Source: Sphingopyxis sp. HIX
GTDB lineage: Bacteria; Pseudomonadota; Alphaproteobacteria; Sphingomonadales; Sphingomonadaceae
Direction of reading: 5' to 3'
Length of the DNA stretch: 64,000 nt
Assembly (NCBI RefSeq): GCF_001468285.1
Contig: NZ_LNSB01000003.1
Span: 62,001-126,000 of the forward strand
Below the pieces are notes generated by a model, which saw nothing but the letters and a program-made list of their open reading frames with translations, searched no databases and was not told the origin of the DNA. How positions within the stretch are numbered: position 1 is the first letter of the stretch; every line of letters starts with the position of its first letter. Both the position numbers and the translations under genes were made by a program. Positions 18 through 39,245 of the stretch are shown here, one piece after another.

Positions 18-809
18 CTACTCTTCCTGCTTCTTCTTTTCGCGCCAGATCATCGCGGTGGCGCTGGTCGAGAGGGTCATGTTGAGCGCCTCGGCATCGA
101 GCGCGGCCTCGAAGGCCCAATCCTCGGCATTGTTGAGGTTCGCCTTCATATAGCGATACCCCATGCGCGGCCCGTCGGCGAGACGACGCGCGGCTTTCAT
201 CGTCTCGTCGCGCAGGGCCTCATCGTCGAACAGGCGGGTGTAGAGGCCCTTGGCGAAGGCCTCCTCGGCGCTGAGTTTTTCGCCGAGCAGGAAGAGCTCG
301 CGCGCGACGCCGGTGCCGACGATCTTGGTCCAGAACCAGGTCGATCCGAAATCGCCGCCCGCACCGATGCGGTCGAAGGCGGTGAGGAAGCTCGCGCTTT
401 TCGCGGCGAAGCGCAGGTCGCATGCGCCGGCGATGCCGATGCCCGCGCCGGCGACGGGGCCGTTGACCATCGCGATCGTGGGTTTAGGCATTTCGTGGAG
501 CAGGCGCGAGGTTTCCATGAAGGTGCGGAGGCGCACATGACCCTGTTCGGTACGGCTGCCGACTTGCGGGTTGGCGGGCACGACCGCCTTGTCGGCGCCG
601 CCTTCCTTGAGGTCGCCGCCGGCGCAAAAGCCGCGCCCTGCGCCGGTCACGACGACGCAGCCGACCGACGCATCGCGCGCGGCGTCGGCGCAGGCGTCGG
701 CGAGCGGCGCCATGATCGCGCTGGTCAGCGCGTTGAGCCGGTCGGGCCGGTTGAGGGTGATGGTGCGGACGCCTTCGGCGTCGTCGTCGATCAGGATTTC
801 GTCGCTCAT
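18..809 (-). CDS. enoyl-CoA hydratase/isomerase family protein (PaaG-like crotonase)
   Basis: A 263-residue crotonase-fold protein, the usual length for the family. The open frame extends upstream to 980, but that extension translates the palindromic repeat, so the start is the ATG at 809 (MSDEILIDDD). The oxyanion-hole segments FCAGGDLK and GPVAGAGIG are visible. The two catalytic glutamates of classical hydratases are not conserved: they align with Asp (GACDL) and Phe (TAFDRIG). An Asp in AGGDFGSTW aligns with the catalytic Asp of PaaG-type isomerases, so double-bond isomerisation is at least as likely as hydration. It probably acts in the cytoplasm on CoA thioesters in the adjacent acyl-CoA pathway. 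The substrate is unknown. Confidence 0.85.
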   Translation of the reverse strand: MSDEILIDDDAEGVRTITLNRPDRLNALTSAIMAPLADACADAARDASVGCVVVTGAGRGFCAGGDLKEGGADKAVVPANPQVGSRTEQGHVRLRTFMETSRLLHEMPKPTIAMVNGPVAGAGIGIAGACDLRFAAKSASFLTAFDRIGAGGDFGSTWFWTKIVGTGVARELFLLGEKLSAEEAFAKGLYTRLFDDEALRDETMKAARRLADGPRMGYRYMKANLNNAEDWAFEAALDAEALNMTLSTSATAMIWREKKKQEE

Positions 810-976: not shown

Positions 977-2263
977 TCAATCCCCGCCGAGTTCGCGGTG
1001 GCGCGCCAGCATCGCTACCGCCTTTTCCGCGAGCTCCTCGGGCACCGCCGGATAGAGCGGCAGCGGCCGCGTCTTGCTCGGCAGCGCGATCGTCGCGGTC
1101 GCGCGCACCGTTTCCTCGTCGCGCTGGTTGGTGAATTTCACCGCGACGTCAACCAGGCTCTGCCCGCCCTCCTGCCGCTTCGCGAGCACTTCGCCGGTGA
1201 CGCGCTGGACGTCGCCCATATAGTTGAACTTGCGGATCTCGTCGTGGATATGGGTGATGACGGCATCGTCGCCCGCCCAGTCGCTGAGATATTGCCACAG
1301 GTAATTTTCGCGCATGACGCCATAGTCATAGGCCATCGGATTGCCGATCGCCTGCGCCCACAGCGGATCCCAGTGCAGCCGCTGCGCGACGTCGGGGATG
1401 CCATGCTCGTTCTTCACATAGAAGGCGGGGATGCGCTGGCGATTCTTGTGCGCGAGGCGGTTCGCGGTCGGCGCATAGGGCACGAAGCCATAACCGCCGG
1501 CGTGGAAGCAGATGACGTCGGTGACGGTCAGCGGGCCCTTGGCCTGCAGGCCGACCGAATCGCCCTTCTCGACGCTTTCGAACCAGCGCTTCTCGGCGCC
1601 CTGGACATGCTCCTTGGCGTAGATGTCCTCGATCGCCTGCATTTCCTCGTCGGTATAGCTGGCGGGTTCGATCGCCGAATATTTGCCCTTCTTCACCGCG
1701 GTCTTGCGTTCGGTAAGCACGCGCAGGATGCGGTAGACCGCGACGACCTCGCCGCGCTGGTTCATCTTCACGTCGCGGCGCACGCCGATGACCGAGCGGC
1801 CGGCGAATTCGGACTGCTTGACCTCGCACGATTCGTCGCCGTTGAAGCTGTAGATCGTGTCGCCGGGAAAGATCGGGCGGTAGAAATCCCATTGCGACCC
1901 CGACACGAAGACGTGAACGCCCTTGAATAGGGACTTCTTCAGCGCCTTGATCTCGTCGGGCACGGGGTCGCCCTTCATCGGCTTGTTGATGATGCCCGCC
2001 ATCATGCCGGGCGCGATCACGCTGCCCCAGCGCGTTTTCTTCGCATAGTGGGGGTCGGTGTAGAGCGGCTTGTCATCGCCCATGCCGTGCGCGAAATTGC
2101 GGATATTATCCTCGGTCGCGGTCTGGATATATTCGCGCGTCTTCGCCGCTTGGTCGAATCCCAGCAGCTTGCGCTGCCGCTCGATATCCGCGTCGGTAAT
2201 CTCGTACGCGACGGCCTTTTGCCACTCATCGCTCTCTTTGATGTCGGTTTTCGCCTCGGCCAT
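977..2263 (-). CDS. MaoC-type double-hotdog acyl dehydratase
   Basis: A 428-residue protein with two hotdog regions. The N-terminal one (about residues 25-190, EYIQTATEDNIRNFAHGMGD, then SVIAPGMM) resembles the FAS1/MaoC dehydratase region. The C-terminal one (about 230-420, including HIHDEIRKFNYMGDVQRVTG) resembles a MaoC partner domain. Such proteins hydrate or dehydrate 2-enoyl-CoA/3-hydroxyacyl-CoA. Bulky-substrate dehydratases such as mycobacterial ChsH1-ChsH2 use two separate chains; here both domains lie in one. The start at 2263 (MAEAKTD) is preferred over 2281 because GGGAG lies seven bases upstream. It diverges from the acyl-CoA synthetase across a 74-base promoter region with a palindrome. 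Substrate is not determinable. Confidence 0.82.
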   Translation of the reverse strand: MAEAKTDIKESDEWQKAVAYEITDADIERQRKLLGFDQAAKTREYIQTATEDNIRNFAHGMGDDKPLYTDPHYAKKTRWGSVIAPGMMAGIINKPMKGDPVPDEIKALKKSLFKGVHVFVSGSQWDFYRPIFPGDTIYSFNGDESCEVKQSEFAGRSVIGVRRDVKMNQRGEVVAVYRILRVLTERKTAVKKGKYSAIEPASYTDEEMQAIEDIYAKEHVQGAEKRWFESVEKGDSVGLQAKGPLTVTDVICFHAGGYGFVPYAPTANRLAHKNRQRIPAFYVKNEHGIPDVAQRLHWDPLWAQAIGNPMAYDYGVMRENYLWQYLSDWAGDDAVITHIHDEIRKFNYMGDVQRVTGEVLAKRQEGGQSLVDVAVKFTNQRDEETVRATATIALPSKTRPLPLYPAVPEELAEKAVAMLARHRELGGD

Positions 2264-2337: not shown

Positions 2338-3825
2338 ATGGAAGTTCGCCGCATCAGCGATGCCTTGAAGATACGCGCCGGCCATCAGGCCGACGACATC
2401 GCGCACGACGATATCCGGCGGCAGATCACCTTCGCCGAATGGGATCGCGAGGCCGACGAGGTCGGCGGCGGGCTGGCGGCGGCGGGGCTGGTTCCGGGCG
2501 ACCGGGTGTTCCTGCCGATCAGCAATGCGCATGCGGTCGAAATGGCGATCGCGGTGTTCGCGGTCTTCCGCGCCGGCGGCATCGCCTGCCCGATCAGCCC
2601 GCGGCTCAATCCGCGCGAGGTCGCCGATTATGCCGCGCTGTGCGAGCCGCGCTTCTGCATCACCGACGCGCCCGAACTGGTCGCGGGGCTCGACCTCGCG
2701 GGTTGCTGGCACGTCGGCGAGATGCCGCGCGATATCGCCGCGCTGCCCGACCAGACGAAGCTCGACCCCCATGCCGATGCCGAAATCCTCGGCACCTCGG
2801 GCACGACGGGCAAGATCAAGGGCGTCGTGGTGTCACACCCCGATCTGATGACCGGGGTCACCGGCTATAATATGGACCGCTCGCGCTCGACGCTGAACGC
2901 GCTGCCGCTCACCGGCTCGGGGGGCAATATCGGCATCGTGATGCTCCCCGCGCGCGGCGGCGCGACCGCGATCACCCAGCAGAAATTCGATCCCAAGGGT
3001 TTTCTGGAGCTGGCGCGCGAAAAGCGGCCGAACCTCGTCTACCTCGTGCCCTCGATGCTGCGGCTGGTGCTCGATCACCCCGATGTCGCCGACTACGATA
3101 TGGACGGGGTCAAATATCTGATGACGGGCACCGCGCCGCTGCCGCACGATTCGGTGAAGCGCGCGTCGGACCTCTGGCCGCACCTCCGCATTCGCAACAG
3201 CTACGGTATGTCCGAAGGCGGGGTCGGCATCGGCACGTCGAGCCAGGAACAGGTGCTGAAGCCCGGCTGCGTCGGCAAGATGCCCGCGCATATGCAACTG
3301 CGCGACGAGAATGGCCGCGTCGTGACCGAGACCGGCGTGGTCGGCGAAATCTATGGCTGGCAGAAGCATGCGCGGCGCTACTGGAACGACGCCGAAGCGA
3401 CCGCGACGAGCTTCAAGGGCGGCTGGACCAAGACCGGCGACCTGGGCTTCGTCGACGAGGACGGCGACCTGATCATGGCCGGCCGCTCGAAGGAGTTGAT
3501 CATCCGCGGCGGCTACAACATCACCCCGCTCGAGATCGAGACGGTGCTGCATCTGCATCCCGCGGTGCAGCAGGCGGCGGTGGTCGGCGTCCCGCACGAG
3601 GTGCTTGGCGAGGATATCGCCGCGGCGGTTACCTTGCGCCCGGGCTGCGGCGAGGCGACCGCGGACGACATCATCGCTTTCTGCAAGGCGCATCTGGGCG
3701 ACAACAAGGTGCCACGGACGCTGGTCGTGCTCGACCATATGCCGCTCAATCCGAACGGGAAGATTTTGAAGAAGGATCTGGCGGAACCGCTGGCGAAGGC
3801 GGCCGAAGCGCGGCGGGCGGCTTAA
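2338..3825 (+). CDS. acyl-CoA synthetase (AMP-forming, ANL superfamily)
   Basis: A 495-residue adenylate-forming ligase that would activate a carboxylic acid to its CoA thioester using ATP. The P-loop-like motif GTSGTTGKIKG is near residue 151, the aromatic-tract motif NSYGMSEGG near 286, and the ATP-ribose Asp in TKTGDLGF near 364. The hinge GRSKELIIRGGYNI is near 381, and the catalytic lysine lies in NGKILKKD near 473. The ATG at 2338 has AGGGGA just upstream. It is the only ligase in this island, so it is the obvious entry enzyme. Acid substrate cannot be assigned; medium or branched acids are plausible. Confidence 0.88.
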   Translation: MEVRRISDALKIRAGHQADDIAHDDIRRQITFAEWDREADEVGGGLAAAGLVPGDRVFLPISNAHAVEMAIAVFAVFRAGGIACPISPRLNPREVADYAALCEPRFCITDAPELVAGLDLAGCWHVGEMPRDIAALPDQTKLDPHADAEILGTSGTTGKIKGVVVSHPDLMTGVTGYNMDRSRSTLNALPLTGSGGNIGIVMLPARGGATAITQQKFDPKGFLELAREKRPNLVYLVPSMLRLVLDHPDVADYDMDGVKYLMTGTAPLPHDSVKRASDLWPHLRIRNSYGMSEGGVGIGTSSQEQVLKPGCVGKMPAHMQLRDENGRVVTETGVVGEIYGWQKHARRYWNDAEATATSFKGGWTKTGDLGFVDEDGDLIMAGRSKELIIRGGYNITPLEIETVLHLHPAVQQAAVVGVPHEVLGEDIAAAVTLRPGCGEATADDIIAFCKAHLGDNKVPRTLVVLDHMPLNPNGKILKKDLAEPLAKAAEARRAA

Positions 3826-3835
3826 ACAGTCCAGG

Positions 3836-3957
3836 CCCTACCCTTTAGGGGAGGGCAACGAGACTTGGCGGCTTGCCGCCTAGTCGCAGTGGGTGGGGTC
3901 CCGCAGCCTCGCGCAACTTCGACATGCCCCACCCCAACCCTCCCCTAAAGGGGAGGG
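3836..3957. repeat. palindromic repeat, family B, at a convergent junction
   Basis: Two outer hairpin-forming blocks, CCCTACCCTTTAGGGGAGGG (3836-3855) and CCCTCCCCTAAAGGGGAGGG (3938-3957), flank an inner inverted pair GGGTGGGG / CCCCACCC and a small TGGCGGCTTGCCGCC hairpin. It lies between convergent stop codons and may act as a bidirectional terminator. Confidence 0.75.
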
Positions 3958-3961
3958 GGTT

Positions 3962-5185
3962 TCAGCCCTTCAACGTCTCGAACGGCACGTCCTTGTCCAT
4001 GCGCACCTCGCCCGGCATGCCGAGCACGCGTTCGGCGATCTGGTTGCGCAGCACCTCGTCGGCACCGCCCGCGATGCGCATCACGGTCGAATAGATATAG
4101 TCATACTGGACGTCGCCGGTCGCGGTATCGCCCACTTCGGGCGCGATGCCGGCGAGGCCGCGCAGTTCGAGCGCGAGGCCGTTGGTCTTCTGGTAGCGGC
4201 CGGCATAAGCGAGCTTGACCATGCCCGCGAGCGCGCCAGGGTTCTCGCCCTTCGACACCATCGTGCGCAGCCGCGCCTGGAAGAAGCGCTCGCCCTGTTC
4301 CTCGGCCAGCGCCTCGGCGAGCTGCTGGCGGATCGCGCGATCGTCGAGCATCGTGCCGCCATAGCCGTCGGGGGTGGACGCGGCATAGTCGATCAGCGGC
4401 TCGACCCCGCTACGATGCGCGCCCGAGCCGAGCCGTTCGCCCATCAGGACGGTCATGCAGCACGCCCAGCCCTCGCCCTCGGCGCCGAGGCGATTGGCGT
4501 CGGGGATGCGGACGTCGGTGAGGAAGGTCTCGTTGAACTCGCTCGCGCCCGAGATCTGGCGGATCGGGCGCGTCTCGATCCCCGGGGTCTTCATGTCGAC
4601 GACGAAGAAGGTGAGCCCCTTGTGCTTGGGGACGCTCGGATCGGTGCGCACGACGAGGATGCCCCAGTCGGTGAGATGCGCCCAGCTCGACCAGACTTTC
4701 TGGCCGTTGACGATCCAGTCGCCCGAGCCGTCGCCCGCGCGCACCGCCTTGGTGCGCAGCGCCGCGAGGTCGGAACCCGCCGAGGGTTCGGAGAAGAGCT
4801 GGCACCAGGTGATGTCGCCCTTCAGCGTCGCCTCGATGAAGCGCGCTTTCTGTTCGTCGCTGCCGTGCCTGGCGATGACGGGCAGCGCCATGCCGGTGCC
4901 GATCGAGGTGAAGGGCCCCTTGGGGAGATGATATTTGCCCTCTTCCTCGGCGAAGATCACTGCTTCGGGTCCCGATAGGCCGCGCCCGCCGAGCGCCTTG
5001 GGAAAGGTCAGGCCGGACCAGCCGCCGGCGTAAAGCTCGCGCATCCAGGCGCGGCCACGGTCGGCTTCCTCGGTGTCGGGAATCTTCTCGCCCGGCTTGA
5101 GCACATGCGCGGGGGCGTGGGCGGCGAGCCAGGCGCGGGCTTCGGCGCGGAAGGCGGCTTCTTGCGCATTGTCGTTGAAATCCAT
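3962..5185 (-). CDS. acyl-CoA dehydrogenase, large subunit of a predicted heteromeric pair
   Basis: A 407-residue flavoprotein that would introduce an alpha-beta double bond into an acyl-CoA. The FAD/substrate segment FSEPSAGSDLA is near residue 130 and NGQKVWSSWAH near 163. The C-terminal GGADEVLRNQIAERVLGMP is typical of this subfamily. It lacks the HGGIGxTxE region, which is present in the gene immediately upstream (5187-6278). Only one base separates the two genes, which implies translational coupling. Mycobacterial steroid side-chain enzymes (ChsE1-ChsE2, ChsE4-ChsE5) form alpha2-beta2 tetramers from similarly unequal partners. The heteromer is inferred, not shown. Confidence 0.9.
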   Translation of the reverse strand: MDFNDNAQEAAFRAEARAWLAAHAPAHVLKPGEKIPDTEEADRGRAWMRELYAGGWSGLTFPKALGGRGLSGPEAVIFAEEEGKYHLPKGPFTSIGTGMALPVIARHGSDEQKARFIEATLKGDITWCQLFSEPSAGSDLAALRTKAVRAGDGSGDWIVNGQKVWSSWAHLTDWGILVVRTDPSVPKHKGLTFFVVDMKTPGIETRPIRQISGASEFNETFLTDVRIPDANRLGAEGEGWACCMTVLMGERLGSGAHRSGVEPLIDYAASTPDGYGGTMLDDRAIRQQLAEALAEEQGERFFQARLRTMVSKGENPGALAGMVKLAYAGRYQKTNGLALELRGLAGIAPEVGDTATGDVQYDYIYSTVMRIAGGADEVLRNQIAERVLGMPGEVRMDKDVPFETLKG

Positions 5186-5186
5186 C

Positions 5187-6278
5187 TTACGCCGCCTTTC
5201 CCTGGCTGCCGGGCTGCGCGTTCAGCAGGCGGTCGGCCCAAAAGCCGCGGTTGCCGAGATGCACGGCGAGCATCCGCTCGCGCCGGTAATAGAAATGGCA
5301 GTTCGCCTCGAAGGTGTAGCCGATGCCGCCGTGGACCTGGAGGTTCTCGCGCGCGGCGAGTTCGAGGCATTTGATGCCCGAAAGGCGCGCGGCGGCGGCG
5401 GCGGCGGGGAGATCGTCGGGCGACGATTCCGCCGCCCAGCCGCCGTAATAAGCGTTCGACCGCGCGAGCTCGGTCGCAACCGCGACATCGGCGAGCTTGT
5501 GCTTGATCGCCTGATAGCCCGCGAGCGGACGCCCGAACATCTGGCGCTCCATCGCATAGTCGCGCGCCATATGGAGGCAGGCTTCGGCGGCACCGACAGC
5601 CTCGAACGCGGCCTGCACCGCGGCTTGATCGATCAGCCGGTCGAGCTTGCCGGTGCCGGGCATAGCCTCGGCGGCGGCATCGGCGAAGTCGAGGCGGTAG
5701 TGGGCGCGGAGTTGGTCGAAGCTGTCAAGCTTGGTGCGGGTCACGCCGGGCTGGTCGAGTTCGACGAGCGCGAAGCCGCCGCCCGCGACGAGCACGACCG
5801 CGACATCGGCGATGCCGGCATCGGCTACCGGCGACTTGCTGCCGCTCAGCTTGCCTCCCGCCAGCGTCGCGCCCGTTGCGAACACCGGGCCCGGCCCCTC
5901 GGCATAAGCGAAGGTCGCGATCGACTCGCCGCTCGCGAGCTTCGGGAGCCACGCCGCCTTCTGCGCCTCGCTGCCCGCGAGCCGGATCGCTTCGGCACTG
6001 AGAATGATCGAACTCGTGAAGGGCACCGCGGCATTGGCGGCGCCGAGCGCCTCCATGATGACGCCGAGGTCGAGCGCGCCGAGGCCGAGGCCGCCATGCT
6101 CTTCGGGGATCGCAGCGCCGAGGAAACCCATTTCGGCGAGCGCGCGCCATAGCGGCTCGTCCCATTCGGCGCCCGAGTCGATCAGCGAACGCAGCCGGTC
6201 GAAGGACGACAGATCCGAAAGCAGCGCGCGGGCTTGCTCGCCGAGCATTTTCTGTTCATCGCTAAGGTCGAAATTCAT
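5187..6278 (-). CDS. acyl-CoA dehydrogenase, small subunit of a predicted heteromeric pair
   Basis: A 363-residue acyl-CoA dehydrogenase family protein. It keeps the flavin-binding stretch RQMFGRPLAGYQAIKHKLAD (near residue 230) and the C-terminal QVHGGIGYTFE containing a probable catalytic glutamate. It lacks the FSEPxxGSDLA signature. It is transcribed first, then its partner at 3962-5185. The same small-then-large order is repeated on the plus strand at 7255-9551, so the pair has been duplicated. Its promoter contains the second copy of the shared operator block (6318-6333). Confidence 0.9.
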   Translation of the reverse strand: MNFDLSDEQKMLGEQARALLSDLSSFDRLRSLIDSGAEWDEPLWRALAEMGFLGAAIPEEHGGLGLGALDLGVIMEALGAANAAVPFTSSIILSAEAIRLAGSEAQKAAWLPKLASGESIATFAYAEGPGPVFATGATLAGGKLSGSKSPVADAGIADVAVVLVAGGGFALVELDQPGVTRTKLDSFDQLRAHYRLDFADAAAEAMPGTGKLDRLIDQAAVQAAFEAVGAAEACLHMARDYAMERQMFGRPLAGYQAIKHKLADVAVATELARSNAYYGGWAAESSPDDLPAAAAAARLSGIKCLELAARENLQVHGGIGYTFEANCHFYYRRERMLAVHLGNRGFWADRLLNAQPGSQGKAA

Positions 6279-6317
6279 CGCAGGCCTTGCCCCTCCATAT
6301 CGGTCTGTGTCATAGCG

Positions 6318-6333
6318 AGTTGTATAACTAGGT
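6318..6333. promoter_or_regulatory. putative operator, AGTTGTATAACTAGGT
   Basis: It differs by one base from the block at 2283-2298. The 12-base core AGTTGTATAACT is palindromic at 10 of 12 positions. It lies between the divergent acyl-CoA dehydrogenase operon (minus) and the crotonase gene (plus). Confidence 0.6.
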
Positions 6334-6369
6334 CAACCATGACAAGTGCGCGGAGAGGAAGCACCCATC

Positions 6370-7170
6370 ATGCAATATGAAACCATCCTGGTCGATGTCG
6401 CCGATCATGTCGCGACGATCACGATCAACCGCCCCGAGGCGATGAACAGCTTCACCAAGCGGATGATGGACGAATTCGAGCATCTGTGGAAGTGGATCGG
6501 CAGCAACGACGACGTGCATTGCTGCGTGTTGCGCGCGGCGCCGGGCAAGGCCTGGTGCACCGGGGTCGACGTCAAGGAATCGCAGAAAGAAGGCGGCACC
6601 GTCGTCGACCTCGCCAACATCTGGCACTGCGAGGATCCGGGCAATTATCTCGGCCCCAAGTCGATGAAATGCTGGAAGCCGGTGATCGCCGCGGTGCACG
6701 GCATGGCAGCGGGCGGCGCCTTCTACTGGCTCAACGAGAGCGACATCATCATCTGTTCGGAAGAGGCGACCTTCTTCGATCCGCATGTGACGTACGGGAT
6801 GACGAGCGCACTCGAGCCGATCGGCATGACCTATCATATGCCGCTGCACGACGTGCTGCGCATGGTGCTGCTCGGCAATGACGAGCGGATCGGCGCGGGC
6901 ACCGCGCTGCGCATCGGGCTGGTCAGCGAGATCACGACGCTGGAGGAGCTGTGGCCGCGCGCCGCCGAGCTTGCGGCGACGATCGCGGCCAAGCCGCCGG
7001 CGGCGACCGCGGGATCGGTCAAGGCGATCTGGGAATCGCTCGACCTCCCCCGCTCGGTCGCGCTGCAACAGGGCCTCAAATATTGCCAGATCGGCAATCC
7101 GGTCGGCGTGCCGCAGGTCGACCGCGCCGCGCTGATGGCCGACAAGGCGAAGAAATTCACGGTGCGATAG
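6370..7170 (+). CDS. enoyl-CoA hydratase/isomerase family protein
   Basis: A 266-residue crotonase-fold protein. The ATG at 6370 is chosen over an in-frame GTG at 6346 because AGAGGAAG lies at a good distance upstream. Oxyanion-hole segments WCTGVDVK and HGMAAGGAF are present. Both classical hydratase glutamates are replaced: the first position falls in AFYWL, and the second is His in FFDPHVTYG. Its chemistry (hydratase, isomerase, hydrolase or retro-aldol) therefore cannot be read from sequence. It diverges from the 6278-3962 dehydrogenase pair and shares its operator, so it likely works in the same pathway. Confidence 0.83.
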   Translation: MQYETILVDVADHVATITINRPEAMNSFTKRMMDEFEHLWKWIGSNDDVHCCVLRAAPGKAWCTGVDVKESQKEGGTVVDLANIWHCEDPGNYLGPKSMKCWKPVIAAVHGMAAGGAFYWLNESDIIICSEEATFFDPHVTYGMTSALEPIGMTYHMPLHDVLRMVLLGNDERIGAGTALRIGLVSEITTLEELWPRAAELAATIAAKPPAATAGSVKAIWESLDLPRSVALQQGLKYCQIGNPVGVPQVDRAALMADKAKKFTVR

Positions 7171-7189
7171 CCGTAGCGTCAACTACTGC

Positions 7190-7205
7190 TTGACGTTTAC
7201 GTCAA
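7190..7205. promoter_or_regulatory. palindromic operator TTGACGTTTACGTCAA
   Basis: Perfect 7-base arms (TTGACGT / ACGTCAA) around a TT spacer, 50 bases upstream of the start at 7255. A further CGTCAA half-site lies at 7177-7182. The form resembles operators of acyl-CoA or branched-chain catabolism regulators such as MerR-type LiuR. That likeness is from memory and not a match computed here. Confidence 0.6.
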
Positions 7206-7254
7206 CGTCCGGTTGGATGGTCTCAACATATAGAGGGTGAGGACTCGAACGCGC

Positions 7255-8349
7255 ATGTCGATTCTGTACGACGAGGGCCAGCAAGCGATCGCGACGGAAT
7301 CGCGGCGCGTGCTCGAAGCCCGGGTAAACAAGGACGAGCTGCTGCCGCTGCTCGAAGTCACCGGCCAATATCACGACGGTTTCTGGAACACCGCGAAGGA
7401 ACAGGGCTGGACCGCCCTCGCCCTTCCCGAAGCCTATGGCGGGCTCGACCTCGGGCTCGTCGAGCTCGGGCTGATCGCGCATCAGGCGGGCCGCAGCCTG
7501 AGCGGCGCGCCCTTCCTCACCGGCAGCTTCGGCGCCGCGAAAGCGATCGAGCTTTACGGCAGCGACGAGCAGAAGGCGAAATATCTGCCCGGCCTCGCGA
7601 GCGGCGAGACCATCGGGGCGGTCGCCTTCGCCTCGGGATCGAGCGCGCTGCCCGTGCTGCCGAGCGTGACGGTGACCGACCATCAGTTGAACGGCACCAA
7701 GACCGGCGTCGCGGGCGGGCTCGCGGCCGACGTCGCGGTCGTTTACGCCAATGGCCCCGGTATGCCGGCGCTCGTCGTCGCCGACCTGTCGAAGGTGACG
7801 CGAAACGCGATCGACAGCTTCGACAACAGTCGCCTCTATGCGGACCTTGTGTTCGACGCGACCCCGGTCGAAACGCTGGTCGTCGGCGGCGCGGCGCGCG
7901 ATGCGGCGCTGCATATCCTGGCGCTGCAGGCCGTCATCACCGCGCACGAACAGACGGGCGGCGCCGAGGCGATGATGGAAATCGCGCGCGACTATGCCGT
8001 GACCCGCCGCGCCTTTGGACAGGTGATCGGCGCCTTCCAGTCGATCAAGCATCGCATCGCCGAGCTTTACGGCTTCGTCGAACTCGCGCGTGCCAATTGC
8101 ATCCATGCGGCATCGCGCGAGGGACAGGCCGATTTCATCACCGCCGCAGCGGCCGCGCGCATCTCGGCAACCGAGGCCTATGACAGTGCCTCGCGCGACT
8201 GCGTGCAGATCCACGGCGGCATGGGCGTGACGTGGGAGCTGGGGCTCCACCTCCACACCCGCCGCGCGCGCAGCCTCGCCATCGAACAGGGCAATCTCCT
8301 GTTCTGGGAAGACATCCTCGTCGACCGCCTGACCGGAGAAGCTGCATGA
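7255..8349 (+). CDS. acyl-CoA dehydrogenase, small subunit of second pair
   Basis: A 364-residue paralogue of the 5187-6278 protein. It contains the flavin-binding RRAFGQVIGAFQSIKHRIAE near residue 250 and a C-terminal QIHGGMGVTWE with a probable catalytic glutamate. The ATG at 7255 (MSILYDEG) is preferred over an in-frame GTG at 7237 because GTGAGGA precedes it. Its last four bases (ATGA) overlap the next dehydrogenase start, a strong sign of coupled translation and subunit pairing. It opens a plus-strand operon of four genes: two dehydrogenases, SDR and thiolase. Confidence 0.9.
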   Translation: MSILYDEGQQAIATESRRVLEARVNKDELLPLLEVTGQYHDGFWNTAKEQGWTALALPEAYGGLDLGLVELGLIAHQAGRSLSGAPFLTGSFGAAKAIELYGSDEQKAKYLPGLASGETIGAVAFASGSSALPVLPSVTVTDHQLNGTKTGVAGGLAADVAVVYANGPGMPALVVADLSKVTRNAIDSFDNSRLYADLVFDATPVETLVVGGAARDAALHILALQAVITAHEQTGGAEAMMEIARDYAVTRRAFGQVIGAFQSIKHRIAELYGFVELARANCIHAASREGQADFITAAAAARISATEAYDSASRDCVQIHGGMGVTWELGLHLHTRRARSLAIEQGNLLFWEDILVDRLTGEAA

Positions 8350-9551
8350 GCGATCTCGACGCCTATCGGACCAAGGCCGCGGCCTGGCTGGAATCGATGG
8401 TCCCGACCTATGGCAAGGAGGCCCGCAAGGGCCTCAGCGTCGAGGAGGATCTGGCGGTCGCACGCCAATATCAGCGCGCCAAGTTCGACGCGGGCTATGC
8501 CGGGATCAACTGGCCGACCGAATATGGCGGCCAGGGGCTCGGCCATCTCGAAAAGGTCACCTTCGACACCGAAGAGATGAAGCACGGCTTCCCCAGCTTC
8601 TATTTCGGCATCTCGCTCGGCATGCCGATCCCGGTGCTGATGCAGTTCGGCAGCGACCAAGCGTTCGTCAAGGAACGCGTGCTCAAGGCGCTGAAGGGCG
8701 AGGAAATCTGGTGCCAGCTCTTCTCCGAACCCTCGGGCGGATCGGACCTCGCAGGCCTGCGCACAAAGGCCGAAGTCGACGGCAATGGCTGGAAGATCAA
8801 CGGGCAGAAGATCTGGACGAGCTGGGCGCAATATTGCGACTATGGCGTCATCGTCGTGCGCACCGACCCCAATGTGCCCAAGCACAAGGGACTGACTTAC
8901 TTCTGGGTCGATATGAAGGCGCCGGGCGTCACCGTGGTGCCGATCAAGCTTGTCGGCGGTGACAGCCACGTCAACGAAGTCTTTTTCGATGATGTGAAGA
9001 TTACCGACGATCACCGCATGTCGCCGGTCGGCGGCGGCTTCGCGGTCGCGATCGCGACGCTGATGATCGAACGTTATGTCGCGACTGACAGCGCAGGGTT
9101 CGGCCCGCACCTCGACCTGTTCGTCGATCTTGCGAAAGACACCGAACTCAATGGCAAGCCCGCGATCGAGGACGGGCGCATCCGCCAGCAGATCGCGCGC
9201 AACTATGCGATGCGGAGCGGCCTGCAGTCGATCACCGCGCGCGCGATGGCGATGATGCAGGCGGGCATGGTCCCGGGGCCCGAGGGCTCGCTCAACAAGC
9301 TCGTCGCGGTGCGCTCGCGCCAGAAGCTTTCCGAACTCGCGATCGACCTGCAGGGGTCGGGCGGCTTCCATTATGACGACCATGCCTCGCAAAAGGAAAA
9401 TTGGACGTCGAGCTGGATCAACGCCCCCACCGGCCGCATCGCCGGCGGCTCGGACGAGACCTTGCTCAACACCATCGCCGAAAAGATCCTCGGCCTGCCG
9501 CAGGACCATCGCCCCGACAAGGGCGTGCCGTTCAACCAGATCCCGGCCTGA
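8346..9551 (+). CDS. acyl-CoA dehydrogenase, large subunit of second pair
   Basis: A 401-residue protein clearly paralogous to the 3962-5185 product. It carries FSEPSGGSDLAGLRTKA near residue 130, NGQKIWTSWAQ near 155, RTDPNVPKHKGLTYF near 178, and the tail GGSDETLLNTIAEKILGLP. The ATG at 8346 lies inside the preceding stop (ATGA); frames further upstream are out of phase with real coding. It lacks the HGGxGxTxE region, which the small partner supplies, so the active site is predicted to form at the heterodimer interface. Confidence 0.9.
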   Translation: MSDLDAYRTKAAAWLESMVPTYGKEARKGLSVEEDLAVARQYQRAKFDAGYAGINWPTEYGGQGLGHLEKVTFDTEEMKHGFPSFYFGISLGMPIPVLMQFGSDQAFVKERVLKALKGEEIWCQLFSEPSGGSDLAGLRTKAEVDGNGWKINGQKIWTSWAQYCDYGVIVVRTDPNVPKHKGLTYFWVDMKAPGVTVVPIKLVGGDSHVNEVFFDDVKITDDHRMSPVGGGFAVAIATLMIERYVATDSAGFGPHLDLFVDLAKDTELNGKPAIEDGRIRQQIARNYAMRSGLQSITARAMAMMQAGMVPGPEGSLNKLVAVRSRQKLSELAIDLQGSGGFHYDDHASQKENWTSSWINAPTGRIAGGSDETLLNTIAEKILGLPQDHRPDKGVPFNQIPA

Positions 9552-9563
9552 GGAGGCGCGCGC

Positions 9564-10346
9564 ATGAAGATCGACAATGATATCGCAGCCGTCGTCACCG
9601 GCGGGGCCTCGGGCCTCGGGCGCGCGACCGCCGAGGCGCTCGCCGCGGCGGGGGTAAAGGTCGCGATCTTCGACATCAACGATGCGCTCGGCGAAGAGGT
9701 CGCGGCGGCGATCGGCGGGTTGTTCGTCCATGTCGACATCACCGACGAGCAGTCGGTGCTCGACGGCTATGCCAAGGCGCGCGCCGCGCATGGGCAGGAG
9801 CGCGTCTGCGTCCATTGCGCGATGACCTCGCGCCGCGGCAAGACGCTCGCCTTCGACAAGGCGAGCGGCAGCTTCCGCCGCACCCCGACCGAGGATTATG
9901 CCTACGGCGTCGCGGGCATTTTGACCGCGAGCTACCGCATCGCCTCGATCTCGGCCGAGGGCATGGCGACCTTGCCCGAACTCGAGGACGGCGAGCGCGG
10001 CGCGATCATCCTCACCGCCTCGGTCGCGGCACAGGACGCGCAGATCGGTCAGGTCATCTATGGCTCGGCCAAGGCGGGGGTGAACGGGCTGGTGCTGCCA
10101 ATGGCGCGCGACCTGATGGACCTCGGCATCCGCGTCAATTCGATCATGCCCGGGGTATTCAAGACCCCGCTCGTCGCGAACCTGCCCGAGCCGGTGCTCG
10201 CCAGCCTCGGCGCGTCGGTCCCCTTCCCCAAGCGGCTCGGCAAGGCCGAGGAATATGCCAGCCTCGCGATGGAGATGGTCCGCAACAGCTATTTCAACGG
10301 CCAGGCCGTCCGGTTGGACGGCGCGATCAGAATGGCCCCGCGCTAG
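9564..10346 (+). CDS. SDR-family 3-hydroxyacyl-CoA dehydrogenase
   Basis: A 260-residue short-chain dehydrogenase. The NAD-binding TGGASGLGRA is at residues 13-22, followed by FDIND near 36, which favours NAD over NADP. The catalytic YGSAK gives Tyr166 and Lys170, with Ser in TASVAAQDAQIGQ upstream. The sequence resembles type II (HSD10-like) 3-hydroxyacyl-CoA dehydrogenases. It begins 12 bases after the dehydrogenase stop with GAGGAG upstream. In the operon it would oxidise the 3-hydroxyacyl-CoA ahead of the thiolase. Confidence 0.86.
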   Translation: MKIDNDIAAVVTGGASGLGRATAEALAAAGVKVAIFDINDALGEEVAAAIGGLFVHVDITDEQSVLDGYAKARAAHGQERVCVHCAMTSRRGKTLAFDKASGSFRRTPTEDYAYGVAGILTASYRIASISAEGMATLPELEDGERGAIILTASVAAQDAQIGQVIYGSAKAGVNGLVLPMARDLMDLGIRVNSIMPGVFKTPLVANLPEPVLASLGASVPFPKRLGKAEEYASLAMEMVRNSYFNGQAVRLDGAIRMAPR

Positions 10347-10380: not shown

Positions 10381-11631
10381 ATGACCGAAGCCTATATCAT
10401 CGACGCCGTCCGTACCCCGCGCGGGATCGGCAAGCCCGGCAAGGGCGCGCTCTCGCACCTCCACCCGCAGCATCTCGCCGCGACGGTGCTGAAGGCGATC
10501 AAGGACCGCAACAATCTCGACACCGCGACCGTCGACGACATCGTCTGGTCGACCTCGACGCAAAAGGGCAAGCAGGGCGGCGACCTCGGTCGCATGGCCG
10601 CGCTCGCTGCGGGCTATGACACCAAGGCCTCGGGCACCACGCTCGACCGTTTCTGCGGCGGCGGCATCAGCAGCGTCAACTTCGCCGCCGCGTCGGTGAT
10701 GTCGGGTATGGAAGATTGCGTCATCGCCGGCGGCACCGAAATGATGAGCTACACCGCGCAGATCGGCGCCGAGGAAGCCAATGCGGGCCTCAAGCCGCTG
10801 GGCATGGGTTCGGGCAACGCCGCGCTCGACGCAATCCACCCGCAGTCGCACCAAGGCGTGTGCGGCGACGCAATCGCCGCGAAGGAAGGCATCAGCCGCG
10901 AAGCCGTCGACGCGCTCGCGCTCGTCAGCCAGCAGCGCGCCGACCGCGCGATCAAGGAGAACCGCTTCGCCAAGTCGGTGGTCCCCGTCTATAACGAGGA
11001 CGGCAGCGTCGCACTCGACCGCGAGGAATTCCCGCGTCCCGAAACCACCGCCGAGGGGCTGGCCGGGCTGAAGGCGAGCTTCGGCGCGCTCGCCGATTTC
11101 GACCTCGGCGGCGGGGTGACCTTTAAGAAGCAGATCCAGCGCCGCTATCCCGACCTCGAATGGGAAGGCGTCCACCACGCCGGCAACTCGTCGGGCGTCG
11201 TCGACGGCGCTGCCGCGCTGCTGCTGACCTCGAAGGATTATGCCGACAAGCATGGGCTGAAGCCGCGCGCGCGCATCGTCGCTTACGCCAACCAGGGCGA
11301 TGATCCGACGCTGATGCTCAACGCCCCGGTGCCCGCAGCGAAGAAGGTGCTCGAAAAGGCGGGCCTCAACACCGACGACATCGACGTCTGGGAAATCAAC
11401 GAGGCCTTTGCCGTGGTCGCCGAAAAGTTCATCCGCGACCTCGACCTCGACCGCGAAAAGGTGAACATCAACGGCGGTGCGATGGCGCTCGGCCACCCGA
11501 TCGGCGCCACCGGCTCGATCCTGATCGGCACCGCGCTCGACGAACTCGAACGCTCGGGCGGGCGCTATGGCCTCGTCACCATGTGCGCCGCGGGCGGCAT
11601 GGCGCCGGCGATCATCATCGAACGGATCTGA
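10381..11631 (+). CDS. acetyl-CoA C-acyltransferase (thiolase)
   Basis: A 416-residue degradative-type thiolase that cleaves a 3-ketoacyl-CoA with CoA. The nucleophile is Cys92 in DRFCGGGISS, His372 lies in ALGHPIGATG, and the second Cys402 lies in TMCAAGGMAPA. HHAGNSSGVVDGAAA and NEAFA are also present. The start is the ATG at 10381 after AAGAAGGAAAC; the frame upstream overlaps the SDR gene and is not coding. It is the last gene of the operon and is followed by a palindromic repeat. Confidence 0.93.
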   Translation: MTEAYIIDAVRTPRGIGKPGKGALSHLHPQHLAATVLKAIKDRNNLDTATVDDIVWSTSTQKGKQGGDLGRMAALAAGYDTKASGTTLDRFCGGGISSVNFAAASVMSGMEDCVIAGGTEMMSYTAQIGAEEANAGLKPLGMGSGNAALDAIHPQSHQGVCGDAIAAKEGISREAVDALALVSQQRADRAIKENRFAKSVVPVYNEDGSVALDREEFPRPETTAEGLAGLKASFGALADFDLGGGVTFKKQIQRRYPDLEWEGVHHAGNSSGVVDGAAALLLTSKDYADKHGLKPRARIVAYANQGDDPTLMLNAPVPAAKKVLEKAGLNTDDIDVWEINEAFAVVAEKFIRDLDLDREKVNINGGAMALGHPIGATGSILIGTALDELERSGGRYGLVTMCAAGGMAPAIIIERI

Positions 11632-13356: not shown

Positions 13357-14487
13357 ATGGCAGGTCCGCTTCAGGGTATCCGCATCATCGAATTCGCCGG
13401 CATCGGCCCCGGCCCCTTCTGCGGCATGATGCTCGCCGATCATGGCGCCGAGGTCATCCGCATCGATCGCCCCGGCGGCTTCATGGACCCGCGCGATCCC
13501 TTGTCGCGCAATCGCACCTCGATCGCGCTCGACATGAAGAATCCCGACGCGGTGCAGATCGCCCGCGACCTGTGCAAGAGCGCCGACGGCATCATCGAGG
13601 GCTATCGCCCCGGCGTGATGGAGCGGCTGGGGCTCGGGCCCGACGTGCTGCTCGGCGACAATCCGAAACTCGTCTATGGTCGCATGACCGGCTGGGGCCA
13701 GTTCGGTCCCTATGCGCAGGCAGCCGGCCACGACATCAATTATATCTCGCTGTCGGGCGTGCTCCACACGATCGGCCTTGCCGGGCAGAAGCCCGTGCCG
13801 CCGGTCAACTATGTCGGCGATTTCGGCGGCGGCGGCATGATGCTGGCGTTTGGCATGTCGAGCGCGCTGCTCCACGCGGCGAAGACCGGCGAAGGCCAGG
13901 TCATCGACTGCGCGATGACCGACGGGTCGGCCTTGCTCGCGGGCATGAGCTGGTGGTTCCACGGCGCGGGCATGATCAAGGACGAAGCGGGCGTGAATCG
14001 CCTCGACGGCGGCGCCCCCTATTACGACACCTATACTTGCAGCGACGGCAAGTTCATCTCGATCGGGTCGATCGAGCCGCAATTTTACGCGCTGCTCCGT
14101 GCGAAGACCGGGCTCGACGCCGACCCCGCCTTCGACGTGCAGGACGACCAGGAGAATTGGCCTGCCAAGAAGGTCAAGGTCGCCGCGCTGTTCGCGACCA
14201 AGACGCGCGACGAGTGGTGCGAATTGATGGAAATGACCGACGTCTGCTTCGCGCCCGTACTGTCGCTGACCGAAGCGCCGCATCACCCGCACAATGTCGA
14301 GCGCGAGACCTTCGTCACCGTCGCGGGCGTGCCGCATCCGGCTCCCGCGCCGCGCTATTCGGCGACGGTCAACGACACCCCGCGCGCGGCGCCCGTCCCG
14401 GGCAGCGATGGCGACGCGGTTCTCGCGGGGCTCGGCTACGACGCGGGCAAGATCGCGGCATTGCGTAGTGGCGGCGCGGTGCGCTGA
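13357..14487 (+). CDS. CaiB/BaiF family protein, probable alpha-methylacyl-CoA racemase
   Basis: A 376-residue type III CoA-transferase fold protein. Its catalytic layout matches mycobacterial alpha-methylacyl-CoA racemase, numbered one lower: His125 (AGHDINY), Asp155 (YVGDFGGGG) and Glu240 (GSIEPQF), against His126, Asp156 and Glu241 in MCR. Racemisation of 2-methylacyl-CoA is therefore more likely than CoA transfer. It would supply the (2S)-epimer that acyl-CoA dehydrogenases require for branched side chains. The start at 13357 (MAGPLQGIRI) follows GGGAGAAAAG. It heads a three-gene plus-strand operon with a crotonase and a phosphatase-like gene. Confidence 0.87.
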   Translation: MAGPLQGIRIIEFAGIGPGPFCGMMLADHGAEVIRIDRPGGFMDPRDPLSRNRTSIALDMKNPDAVQIARDLCKSADGIIEGYRPGVMERLGLGPDVLLGDNPKLVYGRMTGWGQFGPYAQAAGHDINYISLSGVLHTIGLAGQKPVPPVNYVGDFGGGGMMLAFGMSSALLHAAKTGEGQVIDCAMTDGSALLAGMSWWFHGAGMIKDEAGVNRLDGGAPYYDTYTCSDGKFISIGSIEPQFYALLRAKTGLDADPAFDVQDDQENWPAKKVKVAALFATKTRDEWCELMEMTDVCFAPVLSLTEAPHHPHNVERETFVTVAGVPHPAPAPRYSATVNDTPRAAPVPGSDGDAVLAGLGYDAGKIAALRSGGAVR

Positions 14488-14542: not shown

Positions 14543-15346
14543 ATGGGCGAATTTCTGAGCGTCGAGCGGCGCGGCAAGATCGCGATCCTGACGATGATCA
14601 AGCCCGAGAGCATGAATGCGATCGGCACCCACGAAGATTGCGACGACATCATCGACACGATGCGCGACCTGGGGGCCGACCGCAGCGTCAGCGCGATCAT
14701 CCTGACCGGCAGCGGCAAGGCGTTCAGCGCCGGCGGCAACCTCAAGGGCATGCAGGACCGGCAGGGCATCGGGGTGCTCGACCAGCCCGATTCGACCCGC
14801 GCCAATTACCGCCGCGGCGTGCAGGCGGTGATCCGCGCGCTAATGGACTGCGAAGTCCCGATGATCGCGGCGGTCAACGGCCATGCCATCGGGCTCGGCG
14901 CCGACCTCGCCTGCACCTGCGACATCCGCATCGCGGCCGCGAGCGCCAAATTCGCATGCAGCTTCATCAAGGTCGGCATCGTTCCCGGCGACGGCGGAGC
15001 CTGGCTGCTGCAGAAGATCCTCGGCTATCCGCGCGCCGCCGAGCTGTTCCTGACCGGCGATCGCTTCGACGCAGCGCAGGCGAAGGAATATGGGCTGGTC
15101 ACCGAGGTGGTGCCCGGCGAGGAACTGCTGGACCGCGCCATCGCGATCGCCGAGCGCATCGTGTGCAATCCGCCGCGTGCCCTCAGGCTCACCAAGCGGC
15201 TGCTCCGCGAAGCGCAGCACAGCCGGATGAGCGACATCCTCGAGCTGAGCGCCGCCTATCAGGCGATCGTCCACGAAACCGCCGACAACCGCGAGGCGAT
15301 CAACGCCTTCGTCGAGAAGCGCCCCCCCGTTTTCACAGGAGACTGA
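14543..15346 (+). CDS. enoyl-CoA hydratase/isomerase family protein (PaaG-like)
   Basis: A 267-residue crotonase-fold protein with AAGGAGAG before the ATG. Oxyanion-hole segments FSAGGNLKG and NGHAIGLGADLA are present. As in the first gene of the window, the classical glutamates are not conserved (Asp in GADL, no QPE motif), while PGDGGAWLLQ carries an Asp aligning with the PaaG catalytic Asp. An isomerase role is plausible. It sits 55 bases after the racemase-like gene and two bases before the phosphatase-like gene. Confidence 0.85.
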   Translation: MGEFLSVERRGKIAILTMIKPESMNAIGTHEDCDDIIDTMRDLGADRSVSAIILTGSGKAFSAGGNLKGMQDRQGIGVLDQPDSTRANYRRGVQAVIRALMDCEVPMIAAVNGHAIGLGADLACTCDIRIAAASAKFACSFIKVGIVPGDGGAWLLQKILGYPRAAELFLTGDRFDAAQAKEYGLVTEVVPGEELLDRAIAIAERIVCNPPRALRLTKRLLREAQHSRMSDILELSAAYQAIVHETADNREAINAFVEKRPPVFTGD

Positions 15347-16165: not shown

Positions 16166-17488
16166 TCAGCTGCCCTTCACCAGCACCCCTCCCTTGACCA
16201 CGGCGTCGACGTTCTCCAGCTGGCGTACATCGGCGAGCGGGTCACCATCCACCGCGATGATGTCGGCGTAGCGGCCGACCGCGATCGCCCCGACGTCCTT
16301 TTCGCGCACCAGCGCCTGCGCCGCGTTGCGCGTCGCGGCTTGAATGGCCTCGAGCGGGGTCATGCCGTACTGGACCATGACCTTGAACTGGCCGCCGACC
16401 AGCGCGTGCGGCATCACGCCGGCGTCGCTGCCGAACACCATGCGCACGCCAGCCTTGTGTGCTTTCCGGAAATTGTCGCGCTGGATCTGCGCGATCTCGC
16501 GATCCTTGCGGAGGTTATCCTCGAGCACGCCATTCTTCGCGCCCTCGGCCTGGGTGTAGTCGGTGTTGAAGATATCCATCGAGAACCACACGGGACGCTT
16601 GCGCGCCACCGCCATGCGGATGCCCTCGTCGTCGACCAAGCTCGCATGCTCGATCGTGTCGATCCCCGCGGCGATCGCGGCCCGAATGCCCTCGGCGCCG
16701 TGCGCATGCGCCGCGACCTGCAGCCCCCATTGATGCGCCTCGTCGGCGACCGCCTTCAGTTCATTTTCGGGCACCTGCAGCTGGCCGGGTTCGGTGTTGC
16801 GCGAAAAGACGCCGCCGGTCGCGCAGATCTTGATCACTTCGGCGCCATATTTGCGCTGGCGGCGGACCTGGTAGCGCAGCTCGTCGGGGGTATCGCCGAT
16901 GCCCTCCTTCTTGGCGTCCTCCTTCTCGAAGCTCGGCGGGAAGAAGGTCGAATCGCAGTGGCCGCCGGTCGCGCCGAGCGCGTAACCCGCACCGATGATC
17001 CGCGGGCCGACGGCGTAACCCGCGTCGATCGCCTGCTTGAGCCCGATGTCGTTGCGTTCGGACGAGCCGACGTTGCGGATCGTCGTAAAGCCCGCGTCGA
17101 GCATATCGCGCGCGTTCTTGACCGCGGTCATGCCCCAGAAACTGTCGGTGAATTCGAGGCCGTTATAGCCGCCGATGTCGGCGGGGCCGTCGATATGGAC
17201 GTGCATGTCGATGAGGCCCGGCAGCAGGGTCTTGTCGCCGAGGTCGATATGCTTGACATCCGATCCCCAGCGCACGGTGCGTGCGTCGGCGATGCTCGTG
17301 ATGCGCCCGTCGGGACCGACGAAGATCGCGGGATAGTCGACCGTCTTGCCGGTCAGCACGTCGATGTAGCGCGCGGCGGTGATGACGCTGTTGCCGCCAT
17401 CCTGTGCCTGTACCGACGTCGCCAGAAGCGCCGCCGAGCCGAGCGCGATTCCCCGCAGAAAACTGCCGAACTTCATTCGCGATTGCAT
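16166..17488 (-). CDS. secreted metal-dependent amidohydrolase
   Basis: A 440-residue amidohydrolase. A signal peptide (FLRGIALGSAALLATSVQAQ, cleavage near residue 29) places it in the periplasm. Metal-ligand motifs are visible: LIDMHVHID (His96, His98), a KICATGG lysine, a VAAHAHG histidine, IEHASLVDD, and the FGSDAGV aspartate. The family includes imidazolonepropionase-like and Xaa-Pro dipeptidase-like enzymes that hydrolyse amides or peptides; the substrate cannot be set. The start at 17488 has GGAGAG five bases upstream; an in-frame Met at 17476 is less well placed. Confidence 0.87.
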   Translation of the reverse strand: MQSRMKFGSFLRGIALGSAALLATSVQAQDGGNSVITAARYIDVLTGKTVDYPAIFVGPDGRITSIADARTVRWGSDVKHIDLGDKTLLPGLIDMHVHIDGPADIGGYNGLEFTDSFWGMTAVKNARDMLDAGFTTIRNVGSSERNDIGLKQAIDAGYAVGPRIIGAGYALGATGGHCDSTFFPPSFEKEDAKKEGIGDTPDELRYQVRRQRKYGAEVIKICATGGVFSRNTEPGQLQVPENELKAVADEAHQWGLQVAAHAHGAEGIRAAIAAGIDTIEHASLVDDEGIRMAVARKRPVWFSMDIFNTDYTQAEGAKNGVLEDNLRKDREIAQIQRDNFRKAHKAGVRMVFGSDAGVMPHALVGGQFKVMVQYGMTPLEAIQAATRNAAQALVREKDVGAIAVGRYADIIAVDGDPLADVRQLENVDAVVKGGVLVKGS

Positions 17489-17542
17489 GATCTCTCCGCC
17501 CTGTTGCTGGTGCCCGGTAACTGGATGGCAAATCAGGACTTA

Positions 17543-18280: not shown

Positions 18281-18283
18281 GCG

Positions 18284-38507: not shown

Positions 38508-38544
38508 AGGCGAGCGGCGGGTATCGGGCGGAAGGGGACATCCT

Positions 38545-38690: not shown

Positions 38691-38720
38691 AGAAAGGTCC
38701 GCTCCTACCGCGCCGCGCCG

Positions 38721-39128: not shown

Positions 39129-39245
39129 ATCCTTGCTCCCCCAATCTCCGCGCAGCCTAACCCGTCGTTCGTCGATTGCCACTGGCAAGTTGCACCCGGG
39201 CGATTATCGTCGCGGTAAAAGAAAATGTCCGGGGAGCGACATCGA

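Follow-up and report, generated by a model that had tools for sequence, protein, structure and literature searches.

Two small-plus-large acyl-CoA dehydrogenase pairs of Sphingopyxis sp. HIX, one of them in a conserved island with its own operator

Introduction

Acyl-CoA dehydrogenases composed of a small and a large chain are known from Mycobacterium tuberculosis, where they are represented by ChsE4-ChsE5 (FadE26-FadE27) and ChsE1-ChsE2. According to the accessible text of PMC11153573, the alpha subunit of these enzymes binds the isoalloxazine ring and holds the catalytic glutamate, while the beta subunit meets the ADP-ribose part; the accessible text of PMC8399759 adds that in the heteromeric type the glutamate occurs in one subunit only and that the heterotetramer is required for activity. 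Here we analyzed two gene pairs of similar composition, A and B, in a stretch of 64,000 nucleotides of Sphingopyxis sp. HIX (the window: bases 62001-126000 of contig NZ_LNSB01000003.1, hereafter C3, of a draft genome of 4.87 Mb in 90 contigs, with completeness given as 100%). Pair A is part of an island, conserved in Sphingopyxis and at least 50 kb long, that has an operator of its own and CYP101-like P450s; pair B is a genus-core unit that this island adjoins or duplicates.

Several further systems resemble these pairs. Tcur3481-Tcur3483 of Thermomonospora curvata is the best PDB sequence match of both A chains and the best fold of large A; PDB titles name it a steroid enzyme. Fic32-33 of Streptomyces ficellus (8hk0), heteromeric by its PDB title, acts in a biosynthetic and not a catabolic context. 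The pimeloyl-CoA dehydrogenase PimC/PimD provides the nearest curated models, although with scores far under their cut-offs. Within the Sphingomonadaceae, the two-subunit Scd4AB of Sphingobium Chol11 and Caenibius tardaugens, encoded near a ligase and a MaoC-like hydratase, is similar by its description in the accessible text of PMC12882949; its cluster, unlike the pairs studied here, serves cholate degradation in hosts that are able to break the steroid nucleus as well.

Results

Division of motifs between the two chains

Positions are those of the window unless a contig is named. Pair A is encoded on the minus strand, with the large (alpha-type) chain of 407 amino acids at 3962-5185 and the small (beta-type) chain of 363 amino acids at 5187-6278. 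Pair B is on the plus strand, with the small chain (364 amino acids from ATG) at 7255-8349 and the large chain (401 amino acids from ATG) at 8346-9551. All four are acyl-CoA dehydrogenases by Pfam, and the middle domain PF02770 was reported for the two large chains only. These contain SEPSAGSD (A) or SEPSGGSD (B) and a glutamate at the catalytic position (Glu250 in large A), while the small chains contain RQMFG (A) or RRAFG (B) and a C-terminal HGGIG (A) or HGGMG (B); small A has no EPxxGSD. An earlier note, made from the sequence alone, had proposed two such pairs in which each chain lacks the motif of its partner, and gene coordinates, Pfam and motifs bear this out: EPxxGSD is found only in the large chains, and C-terminal HGGxG and RxxFG only in the small ones. 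The spacing of the flavin segment in the small chains is R-x-x-F-G, not R-x-FG as the note had it. The small-large junctions, TAA-g-ATG in pair A and an ATGA overlap in pair B, do have the look of coupled translation that the note described.

The arrangement of the two units differs from that proposed. They had been called unlinked, but they stand back to back about 1 kb apart, divergent, separated by one hydratase gene and under different operators. The term "duplicated" holds in a deep sense only: the large chains of A and B are 41% identical and the small chains 38%, which rules out a recent duplication, and by sequence the pairs are old paralogues. Nor are there two pairs only, as pairs C (C3:58133-60329) and D (C3:35565-37647) of the same kind lie on the same contig outside the window, and large A as query gave 10 large-type matches in this genome (E 1e-50).

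The division of motifs was then followed in the 80 related loci retained from the search with large A, whose nearest relatives were from Sphingopyxis and a Sphingomonadaceae. EPxxGSD was present in 80/80 large chains and in 0/63 upstream small chains; C-terminal HGGxG was present in none of the 80 large chains and in 61 of the 63 small ones. RxxF[GD] was likewise found in 61/63 small chains, and its stricter form RxxF[GD]xP, sought within residues 181-300, in one of the 80 large chains. In the alignment with ChsE4, Glu250 of large A falls on residue 247. At this column, which is the LCAD/IVD position, all 84 large chains (80 loci plus A-D) have glutamate, as opposed to none of 25 small chains in a mixed alignment of every third pair plus pairs A-D.

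Pairing of the genes is equally regular among close relatives. All 40 loci in which the large chain reaches 50% identity have a small gene directly upstream of the large one, with a gap of -7 to 44 bases; for the whole set the figure is 63 of 80 loci. None of the other 17 reaches 50% identity, and 14 of these have a small gene and another large gene further upstream. Among the loci without a directly upstream small gene, L066 has one about 2 kb upstream, L069 is cut at the contig end and L061 shows none. Two large-type homologues carry one in-frame stop (G041:C11:168254-169408 and G026:C1:548925-550100).

Structural and curated relatives

In PDB sequence searches Tcur3483 (E 4e-44) and ChsE4 (5e-40) lead for large A, the next match being at 4e-27, and the same two come first for large B. 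Small A finds Tcur3481 first, a Thermus enzyme second and ChsE5 third. The AlphaFold single-chain models (mean pLDDT 79.7 for large A and 91.3 for small B) were compared with solved folds. The best folds for large A are nearly tied (Z 34.3-33.0), in the order 6wy9, 6wy8, Fic32-33 (8hk0), PigA (5zw2) and ChsE4, so that Tcur and ChsE4 structures take ranks 1, 2 and 5 (Z 34.3 to Tcur3483, 6wy9; Z 33.0 to ChsE4, 4x28). Prolines 88 and 91 of large A correspond to prolines 89 and 91 of ChsE4, and the two proteins are 27% identical in the fold alignment.

All four subunits stay below the cut-offs that would give them a curated equivalog name (NCBIfam). The nearest curated model is PimC for both large chains (194 bits for large A and 171 for large B, against a cut-off of 623.85) and PimD for small A (152 bits, against 652.7; small B scores 73). 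The IpdE2 model gives 121.9 and 110.2 bits for the small chains, below its cut-off of 450.

Taken together, the window pairs fit, as far as sequence goes, the published description of the heterotetramer, and each pair likely makes an alpha2-beta2 acyl-CoA dehydrogenase, since pair A is nearest to ChsE4-ChsE5 and Tcur3481-3483 by sequence. In such an enzyme the large chain would provide the isoalloxazine-side motif and the catalytic glutamate and the small chain the FAD-nucleotide side, giving two active sites per tetramer. Small B is a point against this reading, and its fold does not separate the two types: its PDB search has human LCAD first and Tcur3481 eighth with near-equal scores, and its fold is closer to human SCAD (Z 46.9) than to Tcur3481 (6wy8, 44.3) or 4x28 (42.8), so that its model is no closer to known beta subunits than to homotetrameric enzymes. 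In both modelled chains the acyl-CoA dehydrogenase fold also spans almost the entire length, as would be expected if each chain were a separate homotetrameric enzyme and the pairing merely operonic. However, the full set of FAD-site motifs was found in neither chain of the window pairs, and the catalytic-position glutamate is absent from the small chains examined, which makes separate homotetramers very improbable. The heteromeric split, in turn, has good support from the complementary motifs, from the unbroken pairing in close relatives and from the nearest solved relatives.

The island and its operator

Gene order over about C3:11-69 kb is largely kept in four other Sphingopyxis genomes (G030, G060, G014 and G018), with most genes 75-98% identical. 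Identity is lower for the TonB receptor of G030 (40%) and for small D (60-73%), and the genes at C3 34810, 50924 and 52735 are missing in one or two of the four. At C44:94-6840 stand six genes with counterparts of 68-88% identity in each of the three relatives compared there, and the island probably continues on contig C44 in this assembly.

In the genus set of 80 Sphingopyxis genomes, pair A (at least 70% identity) and the CYP101-like P450 (E 1e-100) were each found in 23. Both are present in 22 genomes and neither in 56, with pair A alone in G013 and the P450 alone in G068. In G001 and G025 more than 800 kb separate pair A from the P450, but neither is missing and the operator occurs in each of the two stretches; because co-occurrence holds even there, pair A is tied to the island better than by map position. 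In a family-wide set of 199 genomes the strict thresholds were uninformative: pair A was found in one genome (this one), the P450 in two (this one and G230, at 53%) and KshA in 29.

The operator-like motif ASTTRTMTAACTWNGT has nine sites in this genome, eight between C3:19-69 kb, each within 250 bp of a gene start, and one at C44:5268. In the window it occurs as AGTTGTATAACTAGGT at 6318-6333, between the small A and hydratase genes, and as AGTTATATAACTAGGT at 2283-2298, between the dehydratase and ligase genes. Scanning the window with up to three mismatches gave four matches at these two places, against a mean of 0.01 in shuffled sequences, none of 100 of which had four. As the motif was derived from the C3 sites themselves, the fair tests are other genomes. 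Against the nine sites of this genome (G000) there were eight in each of G030, G060, G014 and G001, seven in each of G018 and G025, one in G012, and none in G008, G029, G003 and G027, which are genomes without the island; the motif read backward gave one site in G000, one in G012 and none in the other ten. A site was found in 35 of the 80 related loci, each of them one of the 40 with at least 50% identity in large A (backward control 0), and the operator-bearing loci with pair A include those of Novosphingobium, Hyphomonas and Henriciella. Pair A shares this operator with a TonB-receptor gene. An FCD-domain gene at C3:20386-21090 has an operator site 56 bp upstream and is a candidate regulator of the island; a second FCD gene is at C3:43351-44121.

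Pair B as a genus-core unit

Large B was matched in 73 of the 80 genus genomes (E 1e-120). Its core locus was seen in two island-free genomes, G029 and G008, and also in G001, there at a second site. It consists of pair B, a nitronate-monooxygenase-type gene, a short-chain dehydrogenase/reductase (SDR) resembling type-2 3-hydroxyacyl-CoA dehydrogenase (HSD10), a thiolase, a CoA-transferase and a hydratase, with a PhoX gene in two of the three. In the window the corresponding genes follow pair B on the plus strand: the SDR at 9564-10346, whose best PDB matches are 3-hydroxyacyl-CoA dehydrogenases with human type 2 (HADH2) among the first; the thiolase (acetyl-CoA C-acyltransferase) at 10381-11631, above the NF004682 cut-off; a CoA-transferase family III or racemase-type protein at 13357-14487, the racemase of the earlier note; and an enoyl-CoA hydratase at 14543-15346.

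A different palindrome, TTGACGTTTACGTCAA, is located upstream of pair B at 7190-7205. It recurs upstream of pair B in G029 (one mismatch) and G008 (three mismatches), and with the same numbers of mismatches before the nitronate-monooxygenase-type gene of each. With up to three mismatches on the plus strand it was not found in the compared stretches that hold the island pair B copies of G030, G018 and G001, while it is present upstream of the core copy in G001; this suggests that the island copies moved under island control in these three genomes. The accessible text of PMC5343134 prints no motif that would give the palindrome a LiuR-type identity, and the exact 16-mer was not found in the literature searched.

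By eye, pair B lies within about 5 kb of pair A in 20 of the 21 genomes with pair A at least 85% identical, the exception being G036, which has no pair B match; eight of those genomes have a second pair B copy elsewhere, partial in G043. It seems that the island uses pair B or its copy and that in this genome pair B keeps its own control. The operator of its own is a point against including pair B in the island pathway, where its role in this genome rests on linkage.

The core locus also bears on a simpler explanation, in which the substrates of the pairs are ordinary acids, branched or of medium chain length (dicarboxylates, methyl-branched fatty acids), and the association with the island is incidental. 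A genus-core pair B with an HSD10-like SDR would fit methyl-branched acids, and PimC and PimD are the nearest models of both large chains and of small A. Nevertheless, the best scores lie far below the PimC and PimD cut-offs, and pair A has its operator in common with the TonB-receptor gene and tracks the island P450 through the 80 genomes. We thus consider this explanation unlikely.

Markers of steroid-nucleus breakdown

Small-plus-large dehydrogenases are easily taken as a mark of steroid breakdown. The split alone does not imply a steroid, because the nearest curated large model is PimC and Fic32-33 is third among the folds of large A. Three genome-wide scans (KshA_C, CoA_trans and a KstD-type model) were made, and on their results the steroid reading was set aside for this genome. 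We take IpdAB to belong to CoA_trans, and NF009479 (printed as PRK12845.1) to be a 3-ketosteroid dehydrogenase (KstD-type) model; both uses are supported because further matches stand near KshA in KshA-positive genomes.

The KshA_C profile has no match in the genome of the window. In the genus set it is above the cut-off in 20 of 80 genomes, 19 of them strong; the strong count excludes the weak matches of G018 (22.6 bits alone, 23.5 with its neighbours) and G071 (21.6 bits). CoA_trans has only two matches in this genome, adjacent to each other on contig C4, whereas each of the five KshA-positive genomes compared (G012, G013, G027, G028 and G062) has one more match, which is weaker and lies 18-31 kb away from a KshA match. 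Of the eight island genomes without strong KshA that were compared, this one included, seven have only two CoA_trans matches and G026 has a third. No full-length KstD-type match was found in this genome: its best match is partial, at 249 bits, similar to partial matches in G027, G030 and G060, while G013, G027, G028 and G062 have nearly full-length matches of 420-444 bits. At E 1e-60 the model has no match in G014, G001 and G033. Strong KshA is present in 0/21 genomes with pair A at least 85% identical and in 19 of the other 59 (Fisher p 0.002); the genomes are related to each other, so that p values are merely a guide.

These results differ from the situation in the ChsE systems of M. tuberculosis, as the Sphingopyxis genome is without steroid-nucleus markers. 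The rival possibility is that the island degrades a steroid or sterol side chain in the manner of ChsE4-ChsE5, with ring breakdown absent or performed by other enzymes. Several observations point that way and weigh against a non-steroid substrate. The closest solved relatives of pair A are steroid enzymes. Ltp2-like proteins adjoin ChsH2-type OB-fold proteins on C3, and both are characteristic of steroid side-chain breakdown as well. The set of P450, aldehyde dehydrogenase, ligase, dehydrogenase, hydratase, SDR and thiolase follows the logic of C8 side-chain breakdown. In G012 both systems stand within 120 kb (KshA at 393-402 kb, CoA-transferase at 424 kb, P450 at 485 kb, pair A at 511 kb). 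If pair A is counted from 70% identity, 2/23 genomes have strong KshA (p 0.08) and the deficit is not significant. Single steroid-like pieces also occur in island genomes, namely the third CoA-transferase of G026, a KstD-type match of 391 bits in G060 and the weak partial KshA_C match of G018. Against the steroid side chain stand the three scans and the 0/21 against 19/59 distribution of KshA, and, in addition, the four window subunits, three ligases and three further subunits all fall below steroid-model cut-offs. We therefore regard it as improbable, and the steroid substrate considered in the earlier note is unsupported in this genome.

Other genes of the window and of contig C3

Between the pairs, divergent from pair A, an enoyl-CoA hydratase-family protein is encoded at 6370-7170 (plus strand), a copy of which, at least 50% identical, is present in 34 of the 40 loci with large A at least 50% identical. 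On the other side of pair A are an acyl-CoA ligase gene (2338-3825, plus strand), the gene of a FAS1-dehydratase/MaoC-type dehydratase of 428 amino acids (977-2263, minus strand), which is the double-hotdog protein of the earlier note, and another enoyl-CoA hydratase-family gene (18-809, minus strand). Among the loci that span at least 16 kb and have large A at least 50% identical, 30 of 31 also carry a copy of the dehydratase at this level of identity. Between the ligase and pair A genes, at 3835-3960, an inverted-repeat-like element (ccctttaggggaggg ... cctcccctaaaggg) was spotted by eye. Scans of the window with Rfam (gathering threshold) and for tRNA genes found nothing.

Beyond the window C3 carries two P450 genes (3115-4395 and 38278-39468), two aldehyde dehydrogenases, many SDRs, further ligases, and TonB-receptor and MFS genes; genes beyond the list of open reading frames were called with our own codon-usage script and no standard gene finder. 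Three thiolase-like proteins each adjoin a ChsH2-type OB-fold protein (C3:97-1661, 8385-9946 and 17444-19092; L009), and the closest solved relative of the third (C3:17444-19092) is a lipid-transfer protein. By eye, the usual thiolase cysteine motif was not apparent in the thiolase-like proteins of C3. A protein of 734 amino acids at C3:15235-17439 (L009) contains two CoA-transferase family III stretches. At C3:48540-50910 (L011:8540-10910) the genes of an APH-family kinase and an acyl-CoA dehydrogenase lie side by side; upstream of them stands an SMP-30/lactonase gene, and downstream an Abhydrolase_3 gene. This kinase and dehydrogenase resemble the 4-hydroxyacyl-CoA step of ACAD11 or LvaA-LvaC; the title of PDB entry 8v3u names ACAD11 with 4-hydroxyvaleryl-CoA.

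Substrate and proposed pathway

A type-2 3-hydroxyacyl-CoA dehydrogenase, which the SDR of the pair B locus resembles, fits 2-methyl-branched chains. On a Massilia plasmid a large A homologue (53%) lies near methylcitrate-cycle genes, as expected if propionyl-CoA is released. The closest solved structures of the island P450s are CYP101J2 and P450cam. CYP101J2 transforms 1,8-cineole, according to the accessible text of PMC5598857, and the substrates of CYP101B1, C1, D1 and D2 are given in that of PMC8197338 as ionones, damascone or camphor. CYP101 similarity does not fix a substrate, which weighs against too close a reading of these parallels.

Prolines of the E helix have been linked to bulky substrates in LCAD and ChsE4; as pocket-opening residues they are common to LCAD and ACAD11 and so are not steroid-specific (accessible text of PMC11153573). 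The first is kept in large A, B, C and D and the second in large A only; in the 80 locus sequences they are present in 55 and 60, respectively. The bulky or branched substrate proposed earlier is therefore plausible. The terpenoid alternative proposed with it fits better than a steroid, given the CYP101-like P450s, though it falls short of proof. Judged from genes and profiles, we consider a methyl-branched isoprenoid (terpenoid) acid with a ring to be the probable substrate, and not a steroid degraded by the usual 9,10-seco route.

The explanation that we favour, by a modest degree of confidence, is that the pairs form two alpha2-beta2 enzymes, with A acting in a terpenoid-type beta-oxidation of the island and B being a core unit for 2-methyl-branched chains. 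Pair A would account for one step of the island pathway, and the order of steps is our inference. A hydrophobic compound would be imported through the TonB receptor and hydroxylated by a P450, after which SDRs and aldehyde dehydrogenases would oxidise it. Following CoA activation, pairs A, C and D would dehydrogenate the product and MaoC- or crotonase-type enzymes would hydrate it. Cleavage could then proceed by thiolysis; at a quaternary beta carbon, retro-aldol cleavage with the Ltp2-like proteins would take its place. Pair B with the HSD10-like dehydrogenase and the thiolase would form the core unit for 2-methyl-branched acyl-CoA that the island uses or has duplicated.

Discussion

What is new here is the island with its operator, and not the type of enzyme. 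No paper describing such an island was recognised in a literature search from whose reach subscription papers were mostly excluded. On a wider scale it can be tentatively proposed, with less assurance than the explanation above, that an alphaproteobacterial catabolic regulon of Sphingopyxis, Novosphingobium, Hyphomonas and Henriciella dismantles a polycyclic or otherwise bulky terpenoid with steroid-style tools and no steroid-ring enzymes, under one FCD-type regulator and a conserved operator. Its tools would be three heteromeric dehydrogenases, Ltp2-like aldolases with ChsH2-type partners, CYP101-type P450s and an ACAD11-like 4-hydroxyacyl step.

Small-plus-large dehydrogenases are thus not a specific mark of steroid breakdown, because the operator and the pattern of co-occurrence tie pair A to a P450 island while steroid-nucleus markers are missing from this genome. 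With the help of this operator and island the substrate can be sought directly.

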